Assembly: GCA_016214755.1 (NCBI GenBank)
Contig: JACRNX010000019.1
Span: 1 to 55,539 of the forward strand
Source of the DNA: Candidatus Falkowiibacteriota bacterium
Lineage (GTDB): Bacteria; Patescibacteriota; Patescibacteriia; UBA11705; JABHMO01
Length of the DNA stretch: 55,539 bases
Direction: 5' to 3'
In this document: positions 5,515 through 51,752 of the stretch, piece after piece
Layout: the number at the start of each line of letters is the position of its first letter
How positions within the stretch are numbered: the first letter of the stretch is position 1
Program-made: the position numbers and the translations under genes
Notes under the pieces: generated by a model
Told to the model about the DNA's origin: nothing
Database searches by the model: none
Seen by the model: the letters and a program-made list of their open reading frames with translations, nothing else

Positions 5515-6636
5515 TTAATCATTAATTGCATTATATATTTCTAACGTTTGCTCGGCGCAGAGCCGCCAGTTAAATCTTTTCGCGTTTTTCAGCCCTTTTT
5601 CGATTATATTTTGTTTTAATTCTTTATCAGTTAAAACTTGGAATATTTTGTCAGCCATTTCAGCGCAATCACTCGGGTTGAAGAACAGTGCGGAATCTCC
5701 TAGTACTTCGGGCATTGACGTTGTATTCGTGGAGATAACCGGACAGCCGCATGCCTGCGCTTCAATGGCGATTAGGCCAAATCCTTCGATGAACGATGGC
5801 AGAACGAACGCATCCGCGGCGTTGTAAAGGATTGGCAGTTCGTCATTGCTGACATAACCAGTGGTGATAATGTCGTTTTTATACGGCGAAGCGTTGATTT
5901 CCGCTCGGACGTTGGTGTAGTGCAGGTCTTCGCGGCCGGCGAGCACGAGCTGATGCTCGATTTTGTGTTTGGTTTTCAGTAAATTAAACGCTTTGACCAA
6001 GCCCTCAATGTTTTTATGGCCGCGCCAGACGCCGAGGAAAAAAATGAATGGTTTCGCGATGTTAAACTTATTTTTTACTTTGTTAATTATACCACAATCA
6101 TTGATAATTTTAAAATTTTCGTCCACACCTTCGTAAATAATCGTGATTTTATCGGGGTTTATCGAAAAATGTTTGAGTAACGCGTCTTTTGTGCTTTGCG
6201 AGACAGCGATGATTTTCGACGCCTTATGTAGAGTGGAAGCGAAAACCGCGCGATACGCCAGCCGGCGGAATAGTGAATTCATCTTGTGTCCGGGAAAGAA
6301 AAGGGGAGTCAAATCATGAATGGTGCAAACGGACTTCTTCGGAAAAAAAATCGGCGAGTTAAAATGAGGATAATGGATTAAATCAAAGTCCTCCTTCATA
6401 AATTGAGAAGGCAGAAGGGTTTGTTCAGCATAACTGTACCATCTTGGAGTGACGAGACATTTATTAACGTGAGAAGTTGGAGGTTGGAAGTTGGAATAAG
6501 CAGGTTCGCGCAAAAACAAAACATACTCATTAACTTTGTCAATTTCAAATAAATTGTCCGTCAAATTTTTTATGTAGGTGCCGATGCCGGTGCATTCTTC
6601 GTTGCCGTACATGCGGGCGTCAATGGCGATGTTCAT
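5515..6636 (-). CDS. glycosyltransferase family 4
   Basis: GT-B pattern with 'VLPSFIEGFGLIAIEAQACGCPVISTNTTSMPEVLGDSALFF'. Confidence 0.9.
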   Translation of the reverse strand: MNIAIDARMYGNEECTGIGTYIKNLTDNLFEIDKVNEYVLFLREPAYSNFQPPTSHVNKCLVTPRWYSYAEQTLLPSQFMKEDFDLIHYPHFNSPIFFPKKSVCTIHDLTPLFFPGHKMNSLFRRLAYRAVFASTLHKASKIIAVSQSTKDALLKHFSINPDKITIIYEGVDENFKIINDCGIINKVKNKFNIAKPFIFFLGVWRGHKNIEGLVKAFNLLKTKHKIEHQLVLAGREDLHYTNVRAEINASPYKNDIITTGYVSNDELPILYNAADAFVLPSFIEGFGLIAIEAQACGCPVISTNTTSMPEVLGDSALFFNPSDCAEMADKIFQVLTDKELKQNIIEKGLKNAKRFNWRLCAEQTLEIYNAIND

Positions 6637-7262: not shown

Positions 7263-7643
7263 CTAATTACTTCGGCTTTTCATTTTGAAAAAGACGAAAT
7301 AGCCCAATGGTTGATAACTTTGTGCGCTATTCAAGTCTGGAGAGATTGTAACTACTTCCAGCTCGGAATGGTTTCGTAAAAACAAAGTCAATTCTTCAGT
7401 GAATCGTTTGCCAAATCCAGGAAAATAGTAGAATCCCTTGCCGTAGTCGCGCGGCGGAATCAGCGTTGTTTCGTCAGTATTCAAGATACTTTTTCCTGAA
7501 TTGTAACATTCGTAATTCCATGGATTCCCTTTTTCGATTTCCGGACAGGGGTCTTTGCAAGTGTTTCCTTGATTGCTTGTTTCCTCTTTTGGTAGGCACG
7601 CGGAGACAGCGATTATCAGAATGATGGCGGCGATTCGTTCCAT
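7263..7643 (-). CDS. small lipoprotein, paralogue 3 of a tandem triplet
   Basis: Lipobox 'AVSAC'; core 'YGKGFYYFPGFGKRFTEELTLFLRNHSELEVVTISPD...GYFVFFK' shared with the two upstream genes. Confidence 0.7.
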   Translation of the reverse strand: MERIAAIILIIAVSACLPKEETSNQGNTCKDPCPEIEKGNPWNYECYNSGKSILNTDETTLIPPRDYGKGFYYFPGFGKRFTEELTLFLRNHSELEVVTISPDLNSAQSYQPLGYFVFFKMKSRSN

Positions 7644-7724
7644 TTTTTACCTCCTTCAGATTTTCCCCCCTTAGAATAAGGGGGGTGGGGGGGTTATTCT
7701 CGAGGTCCCCCCTTTTTCCTCCCC

Positions 7725-8049
7725 TTATGGCAAAAAGTCATCGCCGATTTTTTTGCGTTTACAGACGACGAAGTAGCCGCTGATATAGCCACCGTTTTGC
7801 ATTTTTCGCTCGCCTTTATCATCTGGAGCAATAGACGTTATTTCCAATTCAGGATGTTGTTTGATGAATGTGGCCAATGAATTCGCGAATTCAGCGGCCA
7901 CGCAAGGAAAGTAGTAAACACCTTGGCCGTATTCTACTGGCAGAAGGATATTAGTTTTGCCAATGTTCTCGGGATTAGCGGCTGGTGATTTTTTCGCAAG
8001 CAAGTGAAAACAGTGAAAGCAACACAATCAAGATTGCGCGTTTGTCCAT
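7725..8049 (-). pseudogene. small lipoprotein, paralogue 2 (frameshifted at an A6 run, or slippage-expressed)
   Basis: SD AGGAG + ATG at 8049 gives MDKRAILIVLLSLFSLACEK (lipobox LSLAC), then a frame change at the A6/T6 tract (7989-7994) into '..KSPAANPENIGKTNILLPVEYGQGVYYFP' (track ORF 7725..8027). Confidence 0.65.
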
Positions 8050-8050
8050 T

Positions 8051-8515
8051 TTATTTCTCCTCTGTTGTGCTTGTTAGTTGTGTCTCGAAAACCACGAAAT
8101 AACCATTGCGTTCGCTGACTGAATCTTCGGCGATAGTGACGACGCGCAGTTCTGGATGCGCTTTCAGAAACATGGCCAGCGCTTTGGCGAAGTCCTGTTT
8201 GATAATCGGGAAAAAGTAGATTCCATGGCCAAAGTCGCGCGGCGGCAAAGGGATGTCTCTGTCCGGCGTTTTGCCCGCGTAATAGCATTTCGTATTCCAC
8301 GGGTTTTGCTTTTCGTCCTCAGAACACTGGTCGGCGGAGCAAGGCGGACAAGCTGGGCAGATAATTTTCCCTGTCTCTTGGTCAACTCTCGGAACAGCCG
8401 GGTTTGGAGGCAGGGGTTTGAATTGTATCGGCTCCCTTGATTTTCTTGATTGCGGTTCGCAGTTTGTCATTATCAGCGCGAGAAAAACTGTTGTGATTTT
8501 AAGGAACTTATTCAT
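8051..8515 (-). CDS. small lipoprotein, paralogue 1
   Basis: N-terminal signal 'FLKITTVFLALIMTNCEP' and core 'FGHGIYFFPIIKQDFAKALAMFLKAHPELRVVTIAED..GYFVVFE'. Confidence 0.7.
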   Translation of the reverse strand: MNKFLKITTVFLALIMTNCEPQSRKSREPIQFKPLPPNPAVPRVDQETGKIICPACPPCSADQCSEDEKQNPWNTKCYYAGKTPDRDIPLPPRDFGHGIYFFPIIKQDFAKALAMFLKAHPELRVVTIAEDSVSERNGYFVVFETQLTSTTEEK

Positions 8516-14750: not shown

Positions 14751-14990
14751 TTAAATATTATTGCGATCGCGGCGCCAATTTCGCGGATTATTTTGAATAT
14801 ACCAACGGGCGTGCTCCAATTCGTCATCATCGCGCAAAACGCGATCAAAATATGATTTTTGCCATTGAAAAGAAATATGGCGATGTTTATTGATTATTCT
14901 TGTTACCGCGGATTTAAATTGTTGGATGAATTGTGAGATGCCGCAATTTTTTATCGGTAGGGAACGCATATATGCGTTCCCTACCGTCAT
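14751..14990 (-). pseudogene. C-terminal remnant of a REP-associated tyrosine transposase (RAYT, Y1_Tnp/transposase_17)
   Basis: 'QFIQQFKSAVTRIINKHR..FQWQKSYFDRVLRDDDELEHARWYIQNNPRNWRRDRNN' matches the RAYT C-terminal pattern; N-terminal HUH part missing; 5' end replaced by a family-A palindrome. Confidence 0.75.
14957..14984. repeat. family-A palindrome GTAGGGAACGCATATATGCGTTCCCTAC
   Basis: Perfect 28-nt palindrome at the truncated end of the RAYT remnant. Confidence 0.9.
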
Positions 14991-14999
14991 TATTATTAT

Positions 15000-15971
15000 T
15001 TACAACCCAACGGCGTCCTTGATTTGCTCCATCTTTTGTCCGGCGATTTTTCGCGCCCGCTCGGCGCCGTCGGATAATATTTTTTCCGCTTGATCGTCGG
15101 AGACGGCCTGGAATTTCTTTTGAATCGGCTGGGTGAATTTAACGATTTGTTCCGCTAAGTCCGACTTGAAATCAGCATAGCCCTTACCATTGAATTTTTT
15201 TTCGATTTGGCTGAAGTCCAAGCCCGTTGTCAACGAGTAAATCGTCATCAGATTAGAAATTGCCGGACGGTCAGCGCCATATTTTATTTCTGAACCAGAA
15301 TCAGTGACTGCTTTTTTTATTTTTTTACGAATTAAGTCAGCAGAGTCGGTTAGAGCGATGTAATTATATTCAGAAGCAGCGCTCTTGCTCATTTTCTTTT
15401 CCGGATTATCCAGCCCTTTGAGCCGCGCGCTGATTTTATTTATTTTCGCTTGCGGCAATTTCAAAATGTCAGCGTAAAGGTTGTTAAATTTTTGCGCGAT
15501 GGCGCGCGTCAGCTCAACGTGCTGAACCTGGTCTTCGCCAACTGGGACAAAGTCCGTATCGTAAAGCAGAATATCCGCCGCCATCAGGCAGGGGTAAGTG
15601 AATAATCCAGCATTGATATTCTCTTTATGCTGTTTGGATTTATCTTTGAATTGAGTCATTCGTTCAAGTTCAGCGATCGGCGTCACGCAATTCAAAATCC
15701 AACCCAGTTCAATGTGCTCTTGAACGTCCGATTGTCTGAAAATAATGTGTTTGTCCGGATTCAGTCCCGAGGCGAGATAAATTTTCAAAAGATTAAGCGT
15801 GTTACGCCGCAATTCTTCTGGTTTTTGATAAACAGTTAAAGCGTGCAGGTCGGCGATGAAAAAAACGCAATCAAATTTTTTTTGCAAGGCGAGCCAGTTA
15901 TGAATGGCGCCGAAATAATTGCCGAGATGGATGATGCCGGTCGGCTGGATGCCGGAGAGGATGCGTTTCAT
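15000..15971 (-). CDS. trpS: tryptophanyl-tRNA synthetase
   Basis: 'RILSGIQPTGIIHLGNYFGAIHNW', 'DNPEKKMSKSAASEYNYI'. Confidence 0.95.
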   Translation of the reverse strand: MKRILSGIQPTGIIHLGNYFGAIHNWLALQKKFDCVFFIADLHALTVYQKPEELRRNTLNLLKIYLASGLNPDKHIIFRQSDVQEHIELGWILNCVTPIAELERMTQFKDKSKQHKENINAGLFTYPCLMAADILLYDTDFVPVGEDQVQHVELTRAIAQKFNNLYADILKLPQAKINKISARLKGLDNPEKKMSKSAASEYNYIALTDSADLIRKKIKKAVTDSGSEIKYGADRPAISNLMTIYSLTTGLDFSQIEKKFNGKGYADFKSDLAEQIVKFTQPIQKKFQAVSDDQAEKILSDGAERARKIAGQKMEQIKDAVGL

Positions 15972-16020: not shown

Positions 16021-16265
16021 AAATTACCCTTCGACGGGTTCGACAAGCTCACCGCAGGCAAGCTCAGGGCAAGCTTATCACTACGAATGTTACAAATAAA
16101 AACCTTTGACCATCTGTCTCAAAAATCCGTACCAGAGTGTCATGGTGAGGCTCTCAAACCACGACACTGTCACCCTTCGAGAGCCTCAGGGTGACAGAAA
16201 GAACGCAATTGTCATCCTGAGGTGCGAGTCCCGACGTAAAGTCGGGACGAGCCTCGAAGGACGTA
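16021..16265. repeat. family-B palindromic repeat cluster
   Basis: CCCTTCGACGGGTTCGACAAGCTCA..; CACCCTTCGAGAGCCTCAGGGTGACA; GTCATCCTGAGGTGCGAGTCCCGACGTAAAGTCGGGACGAGCCTCGAAGGA. Confidence 0.85.
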
Positions 16266-21254: not shown

Positions 21255-21983
21255 ATGCCGAAGCAGAAGATAGATTTGTTAAAAAAAACGCGGCCATGGT
21301 ACGTTGAATGGTGGGGAAAAATCATCCTCGCGTTTTTGGCGCTGTTTCTCGTTTTTTTGCCGTTTTATTTTTTCCAATTGTATAAAGTTTACAAGCAATT
21401 TAAATCCGGCGAATTTATCAGCGCGGAGGCGCTGGAAAAACAAGCGCCGTATAAAATGGCGTATTTCGTTGATTCAATGAGTCCATCTATAGGGGCGGAA
21501 GATGCGAAAATTACGATTGTCGAGTTTGGTGATTTTAATTGCTCGCGCACGAAAGAAGAAGCTGCGGTTCTAAAGCAAGTAGCCGCTGAATACAAGGATA
21601 AGATAAAAGTGTATTGGCGAAATTATCCTGTTTTCGCGGAAAGTTCCGCGGACCTGGCGCTGGCGTCAATTTGTGCGCATAAGCAAGGGATGTTTTGGCT
21701 GTTTCATGATTATTTGTTTCAGAATCAAGGCGATATCTCTGTCGAAAAGTTGAAGTCAGCGCCGACAGAGCTTGGCTTGGATAAAAAAAAGTTTGAATCA
21801 TGTCTGTCGAACCCGCTGACGCAGGCGCAAATCAAAAAAGATTATTACGCGGCGAAAGACGGCGAAGTGGCCGGCACACCGACGTTTTTTGTCAATGGAT
21901 TTAAACTCCAAGGCGCGATTCCAATCGAAACCTGGCGCGAAATAATTGATAAATTTATTCGGATCTACGAAAAAGATTTATGA
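21255..21983 (+). CDS. DsbA-family thioredoxin-fold membrane-anchored protein
   Basis: 'IVEFGDFNCSRTKEEAAVLKQV...KVYWRNYPV..GTPTFFVNG'; overlaps porG by 4 nt. Confidence 0.8.
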   Translation: MPKQKIDLLKKTRPWYVEWWGKIILAFLALFLVFLPFYFFQLYKVYKQFKSGEFISAEALEKQAPYKMAYFVDSMSPSIGAEDAKITIVEFGDFNCSRTKEEAAVLKQVAAEYKDKIKVYWRNYPVFAESSADLALASICAHKQGMFWLFHDYLFQNQGDISVEKLKSAPTELGLDKKKFESCLSNPLTQAQIKKDYYAAKDGEVAGTPTFFVNGFKLQGAIPIETWREIIDKFIRIYEKDL

Positions 21984-22537
21984 AAAAGATGATGGAAATT
22001 AGGATCCACGGACGGGGCGGCCAGGGAGCGGTGACGGCGGCGGAACTTTTGGCCATCGCCGCTTTTTGCGATGGGAAATTTTCCCAAGCGTTTCCTTCTT
22101 TCGGCGTGGAGCGGCGCGGCGCGCCGGTAATGGCGTTCTGTCGGATCGCCGAAACCCCGATTCGTCTGCGGGAGCAGATTTATTCGCCGGAATACGTGAT
22201 TATTCAGGACGCGAGTTTGGTCGTCTTCGATCCGCAAGTGCTGATTGGCATTGAGAAGTGCTACGCCGTGTTGATTAATTCGGAAAAAACGAACTGGCCG
22301 GAGATTAAAAATAAAAATATCGTTAACATACCGGCGACAAAAATCGCCATTGAAAAAATCGGCAAACCGTTTATCAATACTGCTTTAATCGGCGCGTTCG
22401 CGGGCATGACCGGGGCAGTCAGTTTAGCCGGGCTCACCCGCGCGGTAACGGAAAAATTCGGCGGCAAAGATAATAAAGTGGCAGAAAGCAACGTGGCGGC
22501 GATGGAGGAGGCGTATCGTCTGGTGAAAAAATCCTAA
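21980..22537 (+). CDS. porG: 2-oxoacid:acceptor oxidoreductase gamma subunit
   Basis: 'EIRIHGRGGQGAVTAAELLAIAAF..GKFSQAFPSFGVERRGAPVMAFCRI'. Confidence 0.9.
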   Translation: MKKMMEIRIHGRGGQGAVTAAELLAIAAFCDGKFSQAFPSFGVERRGAPVMAFCRIAETPIRLREQIYSPEYVIIQDASLVVFDPQVLIGIEKCYAVLINSEKTNWPEIKNKNIVNIPATKIAIEKIGKPFINTALIGAFAGMTGAVSLAGLTRAVTEKFGGKDNKVAESNVAAMEEAYRLVKKS

Positions 22538-22778: not shown

Positions 22779-23060
22779 TTGAATTTATTTATGAAAATAA
22801 ACCTCGCCGTCTCTCCCGGCACAACCAAAGATTGCAAAACCGGCAACTGGCGCGTGTATTATCCTTTGATTGACCATGAAAAATGCATTGCCTGCGGAAC
22901 TTGCGCTCGTGTTTGTCCGGAAGGTTGTGTTTTTCCCGTCAAAGACGAGAAGTCAAAAAAAATATATTTTGAAAAAGATTTAGATTATTGCAAAGGATGC
23001 GGCATCTGCGCGGAAGAATGTCTAGTTAAGGCGATTACTATGGAATTGGAGAGAAGATAG
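22779..23060 (+). CDS. porD: 2-oxoacid:ferredoxin oxidoreductase delta subunit (2x4Fe-4S)
   Basis: 'CIACGTCARVCPEGC' and 'CKGCGICAEECLVKAI'. Confidence 0.9.
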   Translation: MNLFMKINLAVSPGTTKDCKTGNWRVYYPLIDHEKCIACGTCARVCPEGCVFPVKDEKSKKIYFEKDLDYCKGCGICAEECLVKAITMELERR

Positions 23061-23061
23061 G

Positions 23062-23081
23062 TTGTAGTGAGTAGGTTGTAG
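23062..23081 (+). repeat. left arm of 20-bp perfect inverted repeat
   Basis: TTGTAGTGAGTAGGTTGTAG. Confidence 0.9.
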
Positions 23082-23113
23082 TGAGTAGATTAATTGAGAA
23101 GAACATTAATAAT

Positions 23114-23488
23114 ATGGAATTTAAGAGTGCTATCAATTCATATAAAGATTTGATAGTTTGGCAAAAATCCATGGAACTGATAGCAGAAGTTTATAAATTA
23201 ACAAAGCAATATCCTCGTGAGGAGTTGTACATTTTAGCTCGCGAAACCAAACGGTCCGCCATATCCATACCGTCTAATATCGCAGAGGGAAGCCGGCGAA
23301 GCACTAAAAAAGATTACAGGCAGTTTCTATTAATGGCATATGCTTCGGATGCGGAGCTGGAGACTCAAATTGAAATTGCGAAGCGTGTTTTAAATGATTG
23401 CGTTTTGGATTTTACAAAAATTGATTCTTTATTGAAAGAAGTTATGCGAATGTTGAATAAGTTGACGCATGAATTGGAGCAATATTAA
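23114..23488 (+). CDS. four-helix-bundle protein (S23/23S rRNA IVP-like)
   Basis: 'SYKDLIVWQKSMELIAEVYKLTKQYPREELYILARETKRSAISIPSNIAEGSRRSTKKDYRQFLLMAYASDAELETQIEIAKR' is a classic signature of this family. Confidence 0.9.
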   Translation: MEFKSAINSYKDLIVWQKSMELIAEVYKLTKQYPREELYILARETKRSAISIPSNIAEGSRRSTKKDYRQFLLMAYASDAELETQIEIAKRVLNDCVLDFTKIDSLLKEVMRMLNKLTHELEQY

Positions 23489-23583: not shown

Positions 23584-24720
23584 ATGAGAAAGTGCATCGA
23601 GGGATCATTAGCAGTCGCGGAGGCGATAAAATTATGTCGTCCGGCGGTGGTGGCGGCTTATCCGATTACCCCGCAGACGCATATCGTTGAAGAACTCGCC
23701 AAGTTTAAAGCAGAAGGCGAAGCGGATTTTGAATTTGTCCGCGCGGAAAGCGAATTTAGCGCCGCGTCCATTGTTCTCGGCGCTTCCGCGTCCGGCGTTC
23801 GAACATACACCGCGTCCAGCTCGCAAGGATTGTTGTTAATGACCGAAGTTTTATTCACCATCGCCGGCCTGCGTCTGCCCGTGGTTTTGACTTGCGCCAA
23901 CCGCGCGGTGTCAGCGCCAATCAACATTTGGAATGACCAGCAGGACGCGATGACAATTCGCGACGCCGGCTGGATAATGCTATTCGCGGAAGACAATCAG
24001 GAAGCAGTGGATTTTCATTTGCTGGCGTACAAAATCAGCGAGCAAGTAAAAATTCCGGTTATGGTTAACATGGATGGCTTTGTTTTGACGCACACTTTTG
24101 AGCCGGTTGATATTCCATCGGAAAAAGAGGTAGCGTGTTTTTTGCCGAATTACGCGCCAGCGGCCGGCCAGATTTTAAACGTGAAAAGTCCAGTCAGTTT
24201 GGGTTGTTTCGCCACGCCGGCCGATTACTTAGAGATTCGGCAAGATTTATTTAATGATTTAGTCAGTTCAATGGAAATAATAAAAAAAGAATTGGGAAAC
24301 TTTAAAAAAACTTTCAAACGCGGCAATTCAGAGTTAGTTGAATATTATGGTGATAAAGACGCCGAGATTGTTTTCGCGGCCATGGGTTCAATCGTGGGAA
24401 CAATCAAAGACGCGGTGGATGAACTGAACGCGGCCGGACAAAAAGCAGGGGTGATAAAGATAAAATGTTTTCGGCCGTTTCCGAAAGAAGAAGTAGTGAG
24501 TCAATTATCAAAAGCAAAATACGCGGCGGTGATTGATAAAAATATTTCGTTGGGACAAGAGGGGATTTTAGCGACAGAGATTAAAGCATTAGTTAGAAAC
24601 GACAAAAAAGTCCAGTCGTTTATCGTCGGTCTCGGCGGACGCGACGTGACACGTCAGCATATTTTCGATATATATAAAAAAGTTCAGGATAATAAGGACG
24701 GCGTTTTGTTCGTTGGATAG
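23584..24720 (+). CDS. porA: 2-oxoacid:ferredoxin oxidoreductase alpha subunit
   Basis: 'VAAYPITPQTHIVEELAKF..ESEFSAASIVLGASASGVRTYTASSSQGLLLM'. Confidence 0.93.
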   Translation: MRKCIEGSLAVAEAIKLCRPAVVAAYPITPQTHIVEELAKFKAEGEADFEFVRAESEFSAASIVLGASASGVRTYTASSSQGLLLMTEVLFTIAGLRLPVVLTCANRAVSAPINIWNDQQDAMTIRDAGWIMLFAEDNQEAVDFHLLAYKISEQVKIPVMVNMDGFVLTHTFEPVDIPSEKEVACFLPNYAPAAGQILNVKSPVSLGCFATPADYLEIRQDLFNDLVSSMEIIKKELGNFKKTFKRGNSELVEYYGDKDAEIVFAAMGSIVGTIKDAVDELNAAGQKAGVIKIKCFRPFPKEEVVSQLSKAKYAAVIDKNISLGQEGILATEIKALVRNDKKVQSFIVGLGGRDVTRQHIFDIYKKVQDNKDGVLFVG

Positions 24721-24838: not shown

Positions 24839-26692
24839 ATGAAATTATCAATAAAAAAAGTATTTATCATTTGTTCCGCGCTTGTTGTTTTGTCGCAGAT
24901 TTTTAGTTTAAGCTATTTTGTTTTAGTTCCAGCAGTATTCGCGGCGGACGAGGGCGCGCCTGATATTACCGGCGCTATTATTCGCGTACCGTTTTGGGAT
25001 TTGCCGGCAGAATTAAAAACATTTAGTTTCGAGCCATGCCCGGAAGAGTGTAAAGCAACTGATCCGTCGGATGTCTGTCAAACGAAACAAAGCAAGACTT
25101 GTTTGAACATTCCTTGGATCGCGATGTACATCGGCGCCGCTTATCGTTATGCGGTTGTCTTGGGTTCGATTTTAGCCGTGTTTATGATTATGCTCGGCGG
25201 AGTGGTATATTCACTCGCCGGCATAAATCAGAATATGGTAAAAACCGGCCGAGATTTTATCAGCGGCGCGGTCATTGGTTTGATTTTACTTTTGGGCTCG
25301 TATATTCTTTTAAATACCATTAATCCGAATTTCATCTCGTTGAAGCCGGTTAAAATTGAAGTGGTGAAGGAGCAAGGAATGATCAAAGAACTGACTTGCG
25401 ATGAAGCGGAGAAGCAGGGCTATACCGTGGATACACCGAATTGGAAAACAAATAATACTTGCGGTCAGGAATTTGATTTAAAGTACGCTGGCTCTGATAC
25501 TACCAAGCAAGTCGCGGGTCAAAAATGCACGAGTACAAGTTGCGGCAACACCGGACTCGCGTGCATTAAAATGGTTGAGACAGGAGATTATCAATGCAAA
25601 TCAGTGCTGATGTACGGAGAAATTATTTATCCGGGTTTTTCTACGCTTCTTGGTTGCGGGCAATTAAAAGAAGCAGTAGCTACAAAGGGGTTTTATGTTG
25701 ATGAATTAATGTTAAAGAGATTTGATATTGAAGGTGATTCGATCGGTATGACTTCTATAATTCCCATCGGACAAAATAAATTCTCATATTATATTGAGAA
25801 AAAAGACATTGTTGACATGACGGGTCCTAATGTGTCCAAATTACAGCCGAGCGATAGGGTTTATCTTTGGATTTCAGTTAATGATGCTGATTTTGGCTGG
25901 CTGGTAGCGACGATAGACGATGATTTTATCGCGGCGCCGTCAATAAAAAATTATACTGGTAAAAATGAAGTTGGGCCAATCGCGATTTGCAATGGAAATA
26001 TGTACAGCGCTTCCTTGGACGCAAGTAATAAAAAGTTGACCTATTTTTCAATTTCAGCATTGACGTGGGACCAATTGAAATCAGCTCCGAACGGTATTCA
26101 CTGGGATATTAATATCACGAAAGATTTTTTTGATTGTGAGGGAGGGGCAACTAAGGATGCTTTGAAAGTTGATTGTGACATTGCCAAGAATGCTGGCACT
26201 GGAAGCAAGGGAGAGAAAGGCGATGTTTGTAAAACAAATTCTGATTGCAAAACAGAATCAGGATTGATTTGCAACAGCGTGACAGGAGTTTGCAGTGTAA
26301 AAGGGCAAACGGATGCTCTATGTTCAATAAACGGTGATTGTGAAGTGGGTTATTATTGCGATAAAACAGGTTCAAAAAATGTTTGCGAATTAGCTGGTCT
26401 TGAAAAAATGAAGTGTGATCCTAGTAACGATAGCTCATGCGGCGCCGAGTTAATATGCACTGATGAGGATGATTTTGCTGATCAACCAATTTGTGTTCAA
26501 GCACCAAAAGCTTGTACTGATGAAGAAGATAATAGCGACTGCAAAAATGTAGATGGATGGTTGGATGGTGATTGTGATGGCGGTTCCTGTGACTGTGATT
26601 TGGATAGTGACTGCGATGAAACTAAGGGATATATCTGCGCGGGTAATCCAACAAGTTTGTACAATAAAAATGCTTCTTGCGTACTAAAATGA
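24839..26692 (+). CDS. secreted Cys-rich protein with TrbC/VirB2-like TM segments
   Basis: Signal peptide; two TM helices 'VLGSILAVFMIMLGGVVYSL' and 'DFISGAVIGLILLLGSYILLNTINPNF'; C-terminal CxxNxDC-type Cys repeats. Confidence 0.7.
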   Translation: MKLSIKKVFIICSALVVLSQIFSLSYFVLVPAVFAADEGAPDITGAIIRVPFWDLPAELKTFSFEPCPEECKATDPSDVCQTKQSKTCLNIPWIAMYIGAAYRYAVVLGSILAVFMIMLGGVVYSLAGINQNMVKTGRDFISGAVIGLILLLGSYILLNTINPNFISLKPVKIEVVKEQGMIKELTCDEAEKQGYTVDTPNWKTNNTCGQEFDLKYAGSDTTKQVAGQKCTSTSCGNTGLACIKMVETGDYQCKSVLMYGEIIYPGFSTLLGCGQLKEAVATKGFYVDELMLKRFDIEGDSIGMTSIIPIGQNKFSYYIEKKDIVDMTGPNVSKLQPSDRVYLWISVNDADFGWLVATIDDDFIAAPSIKNYTGKNEVGPIAICNGNMYSASLDASNKKLTYFSISALTWDQLKSAPNGIHWDINITKDFFDCEGGATKDALKVDCDIAKNAGTGSKGEKGDVCKTNSDCKTESGLICNSVTGVCSVKGQTDALCSINGDCEVGYYCDKTGSKNVCELAGLEKMKCDPSNDSSCGAELICTDEDDFADQPICVQAPKACTDEEDNSDCKNVDGWLDGDCDGGSCDCDLDSDCDETKGYICAGNPTSLYNKNASCVLK

Positions 26693-26693
26693 T

Positions 26694-27668
26694 ATGACCG
26701 ATAAAATGCTATTTAATAGTTTACTTAATCCCGGCCATTCGTCGTGCGCGGGTTGCGGCGAGATTTTGGCGATGCGCCATGTTTTGGACGCGGCTGGTTC
26801 AAACACCATCATCGTCAACGCCACTGGTTGTTCGGAGGTAACGACCTCGAAGTTTCCGACTAGTTCGTTCAAAGTGCCGTGGATTCACGCGAACTTCGAG
26901 AACGCCTCGGCCGTGGCGGCGGGAGTTTGGGCGGCGCTGAAAACAAAAAGGAAGATCCTTCGAGGCTCGTCTCGATTTACATCGGGACTCGCACCTCAGG
27001 ATGACAAACAAAAACAAGCGCAGGATGACAAGGCGGGCAAAATTAATGTTATGGCGTGGGGCGGAGACGGCGCGTTTTTCGATATTGGCTTTGGTTTGCT
27101 CTCCGGCAGTTGGGAGCGCGGAGAAAACATTTTGCATGTTTGTTTCGACAACGAGGCCTATATGAATACTGGCGTGCAAGCGAGCGGCGCCACGCCTTTC
27201 AGCGCGAACACGACGACAACGCCGCCGGACACGAATTCATTTGGTAATGAATTGATGAAAAAAGACATGATTGCTATCGCGCTCGCGCATCGTTGCGTTT
27301 ACGCCGGGACGGCGACAATCGCTAACGTCGTTGACATTGAAAATAAAGTTAAAAAAGCGCTGACACTCGCCGGCCCTAAGTATTTGCAGATTTTAGTCAC
27401 CTGCGTCCCTGGCTGGTACACGGACGCGAAAGACACGATTAAAATCGCGCGCTTGGCGCAGCAAACCGGTGTTTATCCTGTCGTTGAGTTCGTCAATGGC
27501 GAATTATTGGACGCGGTCAAATGTCCGGTCCCGCGGCCAAAAGTCGAAGAATATCTGAAATTGCAAGGCCGTTATAAGCATTTATTTAAATCAGATAAAG
27601 GGCAAGTGATAATTAAAAAAATCCAATCCATGGCTGATGAGAACATGGAAAAGTATAATTTGCAATAA
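26694..27668 (+). CDS. porB: 2-oxoacid:ferredoxin oxidoreductase beta subunit with in-frame repeat insertion
   Basis: 'PGHSSCAGCGEILAMRHVLDAAG', 'AWGGDGAFFDIGFG', 'DNEAYMNTGVQASGATPFSANTTT'. Confidence 0.92.
   Translation: MTDKMLFNSLLNPGHSSCAGCGEILAMRHVLDAAGSNTIIVNATGCSEVTTSKFPTSSFKVPWIHANFENASAVAAGVWAALKTKRKILRGSSRFTSGLAPQDDKQKQAQDDKAGKINVMAWGGDGAFFDIGFGLLSGSWERGENILHVCFDNEAYMNTGVQASGATPFSANTTTTPPDTNSFGNELMKKDMIAIALAHRCVYAGTATIANVVDIENKVKKALTLAGPKYLQILVTCVPGWYTDAKDTIKIARLAQQTGVYPVVEFVNGELLDAVKCPVPRPKVEEYLKLQGRYKHLFKSDKGQVIIKKIQSMADENMEKYNLQ
26956..27007. repeat. family-B palindromic repeat inside porB
   Basis: TCCTTCGAGGCTCGTCTCGATTTACATCGGGACTCGCACCTCAGGATGACA, same module as 51636-51687 and the reverse complement of ~16207-16260. 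Confidence 0.9.
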
Positions 27669-32214: not shown

Positions 32215-32370
32215 TAGCAGGTTGTAGTGAGTAGGTTGTAGTGGGTAGGTTGTAGTGAGTAGGTTGTAGAGATTTTTTGACGTAAAAAATAACCCTTTCA
32301 AGACAGCTCGCTTCACAGTTCCAATTTTTGTCGTCTCTATAAAACTACTCACTACCCCCTACCACCTACA
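32215..32370. repeat. family-D ~155-bp element
   Basis: GTAGT-rich inverted ends with core TAGAGATTTTTTGACGTAAAAAATAACCC...TTCCAATTTTTGTCGTCTCTAT; ~93% identical core at 39663-39826. Confidence 0.85.
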
Positions 32371-33214: not shown

Positions 33215-33766
33215 TCAGCCGCGGCTGATGATTGTTTTTACTTTTATCACGGTCTCGTCCATTTTTCCTTCTTCATTGATGACTTGAAAATCGCAATTCT
33301 CGGCTTCGGCGAGTTCCTGTTCAACTTTTTGCAAGCGTTTTTCAAAATCCTCGTCGCTCATCGGCCGCGCGCGGATGCGTTTTTTAAGATTCTCCAGCGT
33401 GTCGGGAAAAAGAAAAATAGAAATCGCTTCTGGAATTATTTTTTCGATTGTTCTAACGCCCTGAATGTCAAGCACCATCAGCGCGATTTTTTCATTATCC
33501 CAAATTTGTTTTAATTTTTGACGGCAGTTGCCGTACAAATGGCCATAGACCTCGGCGTGCTCAAAAAAATCGCCAGCATCCAGTTTCGCCTGATATTTTT
33601 CAGCGCTGACAAAGTGGTAATCAACGTCGTTTTTTTCATTCGGCCGCGGCGCGCGCGTGGTGTAGGTTACGAGCCGTTGTAAGTTTGGCATCGCGGCCAG
33701 CAACGCAAGCGCGACAGTCGTCTTACCCACGCCAGACGGACCGGTGAGGAGGATTAGTTTGTTCAT
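33215..33766 (-). CDS. gmk: guanylate kinase
   Basis: 'ILLTGPSGVGKTTVALALL..TYTTRAPRPNEKNDVDYHFVSAEKY'. Confidence 0.95.
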   Translation of the reverse strand: MNKLILLTGPSGVGKTTVALALLAAMPNLQRLVTYTTRAPRPNEKNDVDYHFVSAEKYQAKLDAGDFFEHAEVYGHLYGNCRQKLKQIWDNEKIALMVLDIQGVRTIEKIIPEAISIFLFPDTLENLKKRIRARPMSDEDFEKRLQKVEQELAEAENCDFQVINEEGKMDETVIKVKTIISRG

Positions 33767-33769
33767 AGG

Positions 33770-33861
33770 TAGAGAATCTAGAAAGTAGAAAATAGAATCT
33801 AGAATTTTTAAAAGCACCCTCTAACATACTTCTACATTCTACATTCTACTTTCTATTTTCT
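33770..33861. repeat. family-E inverted repeat (TAGAAAGTAGAAAATAGAATCTAGAA)
   Basis: Inverted copies flank an ~25-nt centre; related copies at 11058-11095 and 46087-46183. Confidence 0.75.
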
Positions 33862-34905
33862 GGTTGTTAATTTTGAAATAAAGTCAAAAAATTTTTCGGG
33901 CATGGCTGATTCGTATGTCTTTTCGACACCATTGGAATCAATAAAACTTAATTTCGTCGCGTGCAGCAATATCCTTTTAACTTTGGTTTTGAGTTTAAAG
34001 TCGCGCGTCGAATAGAGCGAATCGCCGACAATCGGATGATTGATGGCGAAAAAATGGACGCGGATTTGGTTTGTCCTGCCGGTCAATGGTCGTGCCCGCA
34101 CTAAGGTGTAATTGATAAATCGCCGTTCGACTTCGTATTCTGTTACCGCCGGCTTTCCCTTGCCCGAACCCTTTGGATGGCTGGCCATTTGCCCTTCTCC
34201 GCTCTTCCGGCTGATTTCGAATTCAATCGCGCCGGCGTCACGTTCTAATTCTCCGTGGATAAGCGCGGCGTATTCTTTTTTAACTTGTTTGGTTTGGAAT
34301 TGTTTTTTAAAATAATCGAACGCCGCTTGATTTCGAGCGATGAGCATTACGCCGGAAACATCTCTGTCGAGGCGATGCACAATGCCCGGCCGAAAAGTTA
34401 AATCAGCGCGCGCCAATGATTCGCTGTCAGCGATTTTTTTTATTTCCGGAAATTTTTTCGCTAACCAATCAGCCAGCGTCGGCGCGGTTGAATTTTCAGT
34501 GGCGTGCACTAAAAGTCCGGCTGGTTTTTCTACGATAAGATAGGCGGCCGTTTTCGCGATTATTTTCGGCGTTCGTTCGTCCGATTTGACGAACAATTTA
34601 ATTAGAAAATTAAGAACGCGCGCGAACCAATTTATTTTTTGTTGATTATCCGCGGCGTTTTTCTGTTCCGTAGGGAACGCATATATGCGTTCCCTACTCG
34701 GCGATTGGGCGCTGATTTTTTCAATTTCAACATTATCGCCGATTTTCAAAAAGCGATGCGTTTTCGGCTTTTCCGCGTTGACTGTCACCAATCCGGCTTT
34801 AATCATTTTTTGAATTTGACTGCGCGATTGGCCCATCTGTTCAACTAGAAATTTATCCAGCCGCTGGCCATTATTTTTTTCTTCAACTTTAAAACAGTTT
34901 GTCAT
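33853..34905 (-). CDS. RluA/RluD-family pseudouridine synthase (S4 + catalytic domain) with embedded palindrome
   Basis: S4 'QRLDKFLVEQMGQSRSQIQKMIKAGLVTVN'; catalytic 'GIVHRLDRDVSGVMLIARN', 'GRTNQIRVHFFAINHPIVGD'. Confidence 0.92.
   Translation of the reverse strand: MTNCFKVEEKNNGQRLDKFLVEQMGQSRSQIQKMIKAGLVTVNAEKPKTHRFLKIGDNVEIEKISAQSPSRERIYAFPTEQKNAADNQQKINWFARVLNFLIKLFVKSDERTPKIIAKTAAYLIVEKPAGLLVHATENSTAPTLADWLAKKFPEIKKIADSESLARADLTFRPGIVHRLDRDVSGVMLIARNQAAFDYFKKQFQTKQVKKEYAALIHGELERDAGAIEFEISRKSGEGQMASHPKGSGKGKPAVTEYEVERRFINYTLVRARPLTGRTNQIRVHFFAINHPIVGDSLYSTRDFKLKTKVKRILLHATKLSFIDSNGVEKTYESAMPEKFFDFISKLTTRK
34670..34697. repeat. family-A palindrome inside the rluD-like CDS
   Basis: GTAGGGAACGCATATATGCGTTCCCTAC encodes RERIYAFPT. 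Confidence 0.95.
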
Positions 34906-39662: not shown

Positions 39663-39826
39663 AACAGGTTGTAGGTTGTAGTGAGTAGGTTGTAGAGATT
39701 TTTTGACGTAAAAAGTAACCCTTCCGAGATAGCTCGCTTCACAATTCCAATTTTTGTCGTCTCTATGAAACTACCCCCTACCCCCTACCCCCTACCCCCT
39801 ACCCCCTACAACCTACCATCTGCCAC
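39663..39826. repeat. family-D ~160-bp element
   Basis: ~93% identical core to 32215-32370. Confidence 0.85.
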
Positions 39827-51559: not shown

Positions 51560-51635
51560 CGCGGGGTAGAGCAGTTGGCAGCTCGTCGGGCTCATAACCC
51601 GAAGGTCGCCGGTTCGAGTCCGGCCCCCGCTACCA
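51560..51635 (+). tRNA. initiator tRNA-fMet (CAT), CCA encoded
   Basis: C1:U72 mismatch, GGG/CCC anticodon stem, CTCATAA loop. Confidence 0.9.
51617..51635 (+). repeat. 19-bp direct repeat, copy 1 (tRNA-fMet 3' end)
   Basis: AGTCCGGCCCCCGCTACCA. Confidence 0.95.
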
Positions 51636-51752
51636 TCCTTCGAGGCTCGTTCTGACTTACGTCAGAACTCGCACCTCAGGATGACAATTAGATATTGGTC
51701 GGACGAGAAGTTTATCCTGAGCGACCCCGCATTTTGCGGGGGAGTCGAAGGA
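51636..51752. mobile_element. 117-bp MITE-like unit with terminal inverted repeats TCCTTCGA/TCGAAGGA
   Basis: Begins TCCTTCGAGG, ends GTCGAAGGA; contains a family-B module; flanked by a 19-bp direct repeat. Confidence 0.65.

Follow-up and report, generated by a model that had tools for sequence, protein, structure and literature searches.

The window, i.e. the whole stretch of 55,539 nt that we analysed (Candidatus Falkowiibacteriota bacterium, assembly GCA_016214755.1, contig JACRNX010000019.1), carries on its forward strand the gene porB (positions 26694-27668), an open reading frame (ORF) of 324 amino acids for the TPP-binding beta subunit of a pyruvate/2-oxoacid:ferredoxin oxidoreductase. 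The Pfam search identified the TPP_enzyme_C domain (1.6e-15), the top PDB match was 9bt4_C (E-value 3e-80), and the same chain gave the best fold match (TM 0.83/0.93). The intact partner genes lie shortly upstream on the same strand: a porC-like gene for the gamma subunit (21980-22537; Pfam POR, 6.4e-36), a porD-like gene for the delta/ferredoxin subunit (22779-23060; Pfam Fer4 domains), and a porA-like gene for the alpha subunit (23584-24720; Pfam POR_N, 1.2e-70, and PFOR_II). Among named records, the closest PorB relatives come from MAGs of Patescibacteria, Parcubacteria, and Falkowbacteria, in agreement with the preliminary description of this DNA, which had taken the host for an apparent CPR bacterium.

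Two other forward-strand ORFs are present in this region. The gap between porA and porB contains a 617-aa Cys-rich predicted membrane protein (24839-26692) without Pfam match, which ends 1 nt before porB, an odd position for a por cluster. A small S23/four-helix-bundle-like ORF (23081-23488), starting within a AGGTTGTAG simple repeat, is located between porD and porA.

The comparison with the PorB proteins of same-family genomes (G002-G004), against which the boundaries were set, revealed an in-frame insert of 78 nt (26 codons, ILRGSSRFTSGLAPQDDKQKQAQDDK) at positions 26955-27032 of porB. Once the insert is removed, PorB aligns without gaps to that of G004, with 72.6% identity over 292 amino acids. 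In 9bt4, only two residues separate the two matched halves, versus 28 in the window PorB. The first 53 nt of the insert (26955-27007, forward strand) are a palindromic repeat, hereafter family B, which reads in frame as ILRGSSRFTSGLAPQDD(K) and is predicted to form a hairpin (-18.7 kcal/mol). The remainder (27008-27032, forward strand), contributing QKQAQDDK, derives from an in-frame 24-nt tandem duplication: indeed, CAGGATGACAA starts at position 26997 and again at 27021. The whole extra segment had initially been ascribed to family B. This holds for the first 53 nt, whereas the last third of the insert comes from the duplication and the residues "RK" following KTK belong to the ancestral PorB, with RKAGK aligning to GKEKE of the relatives. 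Judging from this composition, the insert probably results from a net insertion of 54 nt and a duplication of 24 nt, each divisible by three. The repeat has imperfectly inverted ends, and the insert is flanked by a 7-nt direct repeat (ACAAAAA), which is weak in such A-rich DNA; no clear target-site duplication was found at the insert.

Family B has two intergenic copies in the window, one at 16209-16261 on the reverse strand, in reverse orientation relative to the porB copy, and one at 51635-51687 on the forward strand, directly after a tRNA-Met and 87% identical to the porB copy. The three copies had been located previously to within one or two bases. By BLAST, family B was found in 29 places of the genome (1.09 Mb, 71 contigs), and the best other copies were 92-94% identical to that in porB, with E-values from 1e-15 to 3e-17; chance is therefore excluded as the source of these matches. 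The 53-nt hairpin of this family is composed of two parts, an 8-bp inner stem and an outer stem that is imperfect. At five loci (L009, L010, L012, L013, and L018), family B is itself nested in another palindrome (TGTCACCCTTCGA...CCTCAGGGTGACA).

A genome split into 71 contigs and rich in repeats, whose relatives are also metagenome-assembled, could have had a repeat joined into porB by misassembly. We consider this highly improbable: the repeat is just 53 nt long, the porB copy is a distinct variant (94% identity to the nearest other copy), the frame is maintained over 78 nt, the contig extends for 27 kb on either side, and different repeats occur at the same codons in independent genomes (see below). 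It could also be argued from the predicted hairpin that the repeat is never translated, being bypassed by the ribosome or excised from the RNA, and hairpin-type bypass elements are known in some mitochondria. The cases that we observed, however, keep the frame and contain no stop codons, which is needed for translation and not for bypass, and the Rfam search matched no family. We give this explanation almost no credit.

As had been noted, the insert lies shortly before the TPP-binding motif GDG (residues 124-126; positions 27063-27071, forward strand), its end being ten residues from the motif, which is intact. An insertion in such a core region of the sequence could be the mark of a decaying pseudogene, still open by chance. 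Nevertheless, PorB retains every invariant position of a 40-sequence alignment, including GDG, DNEAYMNTG, and the conserved Cys, its partner genes are nearby and intact, and its identity to the G004 protein is still 73%, so that decay appears extremely unlikely. In the predicted structure, the core is confident, and the insert, modelled with low confidence (pLDDT of about 50-55), is placed between helix 71-89 and strand 118-123. The fold suggests that this loop should lie away from the cofactor, because it joins the strand at the end opposite to that of the GDG.

The porB insert had been described on its own. The insert is real, but this description is too narrow, as several in-frame repeats, from more than one family, are present in the genome, and others in other species. 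Family B also occurs in frame inside MnmA (L019), HrcA (L021), an O-antigen-ligase-like ORF (L010) and, together with a second repeat, KsgA (L017). All five gene-internal copies are in sense orientation, and most of the remaining copies lie outside genes. The PDB homologues of MnmA and KsgA are devoid of the repeat-coded stretches, and the match of HrcA to 1stz stops just ahead of the repeat.

Another family is represented by a perfect 28-nt GTAG...CTAC palindrome, found in 19 places of the genome. One copy (34670-34697) is located in the ORF of an RluD-like pseudouridine synthase (33853-34905, reverse strand), where it reads in frame as SRERIYAFPT; the palindrome-coded residues fall in the linker, variable among relatives, that follows the S4-like part. 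Of the 15 GTAG-palindrome loci examined, this was the only one with the palindrome clearly within a conserved gene, the others being mostly outside genes or at their edges. A weaker case is that of a simple intergenic-type repeat (6457-6501, reverse strand; AYSNFQPPTSHV...) in a glycosyltransferase ORF (5515-6636), which matched intergenic DNA of the window with 82.6% identity over 46 nt (blastn, E-value 1.3e-5). Repeats at the start of ORFs (rpsB, asnS, the kinase at 33215, and ORF 47506) were not counted as cases, since the 5' start of these ORFs is probably miscalled. The RluD matches of G001 and G002 (L051 and L053) include one in-frame TGA, though an open ORF spans most of the protein. 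The window also contains a 125-nt repeat in two copies (32245-32369 and 39671-39795, 93% identical, units TAGGTTGTAG/CTACCCACTAC), which is one among several intergenic families of long simple repeats, and three tandem small paralogous ORFs with a PPRDYGKGFYYFP-type motif (7263-8515, reverse strand).

Then, we compared the loop hosting the insert among 129 distinct PorB proteins from Patescibacteria, Proteobacteria, Chloroflexi, archaea, and further groups. Measured from H..FEN to GDG, it was 34-36 residues long in 106 of them and 40-42 in 16 (34-42 in 122), and that of the window PorB, with 62 residues, was the longest; an equally long loop is thus not a feature of most homologues. Among 11 PorB insertions of at least 8 amino acids, seven fell within 10 of 303 positions, i.e. 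in the loop of the window insert (p of about 1e-8 under a uniform null, a crude one since the sequences are related by descent and greater variability is to be expected of loops).

The content of this loop varied widely among genomes. The G019 loop contains a hairpin repeat (GGAGTAGC...GCTACTCC) with 15 places in its genome, while the loop of G261 and five relatives carries (CGAAAAT)n-like units, dispersed in G261 with 26 matches. That of G381 holds a C-rich hairpin (AAATCCCCCCTACCCCCCTTTGTTAAAGGGGG) found dozens of times in G381 and G382, that of G384 two C-rich hairpin palindromes in tandem, and those of G386, G387, and G391 other C-rich fillings, the one in G386 being a hairpin as well. Simple-repeat fillings, with similar stretches elsewhere in the respective genomes, were found in G001 and G090. 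The G342 loop contains a perfect 32-nt palindrome; it occurs as a single copy, and BLAST found no dispersed copy of it in the G342 genome, so this case rests on palindrome shape and position. In total, the distinct fillings number about nine to ten by our count, and at least six of them (G000, G001, G019, G090, the G261 type, and G381) are repeated elsewhere in the genome that carries them. The inserts are mutually unrelated, except for a common GAAAAAAATA start within the G381-G391 family, which suggests turnover at one old site. The empty site, i.e. a short loop, was found in G388, of the same family as G381-G391, and in G002, G003, and G004. The longer loops of three distant PorB proteins (L132, L036, and L133) were rejected as repeat inserts: they are free of palindromes and resemble the usual variation of loops.

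Furthermore, we analysed 40 regions surrounding copies of the repeat of the G381 PorB, taken from two genomes of a related family, G382 and G381, and selected by repeat similarity alone. In these regions, 21 of the 53 copies lie in frame inside 16 Pfam-confirmed genes, a count that leaves out antisense ORFs with repeats and the ORFs at L263 and L255, without Pfam match. The genes hit encode class-I tRNA synthetases, ArgRS, a GatA-like amidase, PPDK_N (PEP synthase-like), KsgA, UvrC, a MiaB-like protein, UvrD-like helicase/nucleases, a glycosyltransferase, enolase, iron hydrogenase, SecA, Dus, and TsaD. In enolase, the repeat-coded residues fall where the closest PDB chain (3tqp) has a gap of 13 residues, and in TsaD they correspond to an alignment gap of about nine residues. 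Almost all the repeat matches in these ORFs were in sense orientation (23 of 24; binomial p of 1.5e-6 versus one half). Open frames alone do not account for the whole of this bias, as the p-value is about 8e-4 even if two thirds of the usable frames are sense. A UvrD-like helicase/nuclease carries three translated repeats in G382 and two in G381 (L253 and L269), with at least one in a matching place, possibly reflecting common ancestry of the inserts.

The repeated filling of one PorB loop by different sequences, its presence in some form in 12 of 13 species of one family, and the strong sense bias of in-gene copies could indicate that the insert is under selection, the loop or an mRNA hairpin being beneficial (for docking, assembly, or expression control) and PorB a favoured site. 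This seems unlikely to us: the fillings have no common sequence, charge pattern, or length, G388, G002-G004, and most other genomes lack them, unrelated enzymes are also invaded, and a permissive loop accounts for the site.

We hold it as highly probable, instead, that a palindromic repeat inserted in porB, was extended, and was retained in a permissive loop, through a process general in the class. More precisely, a non-autonomous REP/MITE-like repeat would have inserted after codon 87 and would then have been lengthened by the 24-nt tandem duplication. The insert would have been retained, presumably as a neutral segment, with its 78 nt keeping the frame, bringing no stop codon, and falling in a solvent-exposed loop; we expect the cell to produce PorB with the 26 additional residues forming a disordered loop, and the enzyme to be still active. 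Across the class, many unrelated repeats would strike genes, and the survivors would be those in frame, mostly sense, and in permissive loops. The best reading of the data is that repeats insert indiscriminately and, within genes, survive where the frame is kept and the loop is permissive; the dependence of survival on frame and position is well supported. A bolder view, which we regard as possible but rather doubtful, is that the repeats of Patescibacteria, in several unrelated families, are by now coding-compatible class-wide and enter or survive almost only in sense orientation, by transcription-linked insertion or selection on a soluble encoded peptide, thus being a running source of protein segments, with fixed landing loops (as in PorB) where repeats replace one another.

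Short palindromes found between and inside genes, and in frame in proteins, are known in Rickettsia as RPEs (Ogata et al. 2000, 2002, reviewed in PMC10969869). The preliminary description had proposed a likeness to these elements, which stands as a mode of action and not as family membership. As with RPEs, the palindromes described here are short, lie between genes and also, in frame, within metabolic and housekeeping proteins that are unrelated, and add tens of residues. Differently from RPEs, they occur in another phylum, several unrelated families are active in one genome, and a single enzyme loop has received, through independent invasions, a different repeat in each of several species.

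According to the description in PMC3733652, RPE-4 and RPE-6 are CGTC REPs, which have a CGTC (or TGTC/CCTC) end tag, A-T first in the stem, an 8-9-bp stem, a 4-5-nt loop, and a short unpaired tail. The same source reports intragenic GTAG/CGTC REPs ("REP-decorated proteins") in O. terrae and in Thioalkalivibrio uvrA, often as dimers or grouped, and many in DNA repair genes. Family B resembles RPEs and CGTC REPs in occurring between genes as well as in frame within unrelated ones (PorB, MnmA, KsgA, HrcA, and the O-antigen-ligase-like ORF), and nearly all its copies bear a TGTC-type tag (TGTC-ATCCT...), with A-T at the head of the stem, on the minus strand. Despite this tag, we do not place it among the CGTC REPs, because its stem-loop differs from the measures that PMC3733652 gives for them. 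The GTAG tag was found only in the 28-nt palindrome, at both ends, and not in family B. By analogy, then, family B would work like RPEs, compared here by description, and intragenic REPs as portrayed in that source, and we claim membership in neither.

As in the REP cases cited there, repeats occur here inside coding regions, including UvrC and UvrD-type genes, whereas the C-rich repeat of G381 and G382 has neither tag and recurrent invasion of the same site is not mentioned in the relevant passages of PMC3733652. ERIC/RU elements and Coxiella QMITEs are also small non-autonomous repeats joined in frame to genes (PMC2759123, PMC5896051); as outlined in these sources, they are longer than the repeats described here (about 100 nt or more). 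The mid-ORF in-frame cases that PMC5896051 describes for Coxiella concern hypothetical proteins, and the functional case that it names, a C-terminal extension, does not concern a core enzyme.

Proteins with in-frame repeats are thus already known from Rickettsia, intragenic REPs, ERIC, and Coxiella MITEs, as far as the cited descriptions go. In the open-licence papers that we searched, we found no report of in-frame repeats of this sort in Patescibacteria/CPR; the occurrence across a Patescibacteria class, the simultaneous involvement of several unrelated families, and the recurrent use of a single enzyme loop by different repeats appear to be new. Rickettsia has long been the main case of protein-invading repeats, and here the process is seen in reduced genomes of another phylum, where "junk" DNA appears to turn repeatedly into protein and even such conserved enzymes as SecA, enolase, and aminoacyl-tRNA synthetases are affected. 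These genomes offer, in replicate, a natural test of which protein sites tolerate random sequence and of how new segments arise. They also carry a warning for annotation, as "repeat" and "protein" are not mutually exclusive.

Elsewhere, according to PMC3733652, the movement of small palindromes is ascribed to Y1 (RAYT) transposases acting in trans, and by analogy a trans-acting enzyme is a plausible, unproven agent of insertion for family B. The Y1 genes of the genome are of the IS200 type or are relics and fragments; we found in it no intact transposase tied to family B, and no intact one (RAYT) with the GTAG palindrome. A truncated Y1 (IS200/RAYT-like) relic (14787-15026, reverse strand), directly after trpS, carries the GTAG palindrome in frame in its 5' part (VGNAYMRSLPIKNCGISQFIQQFKSAVTR...), which ties that palindrome, but not family B, to a transposase.
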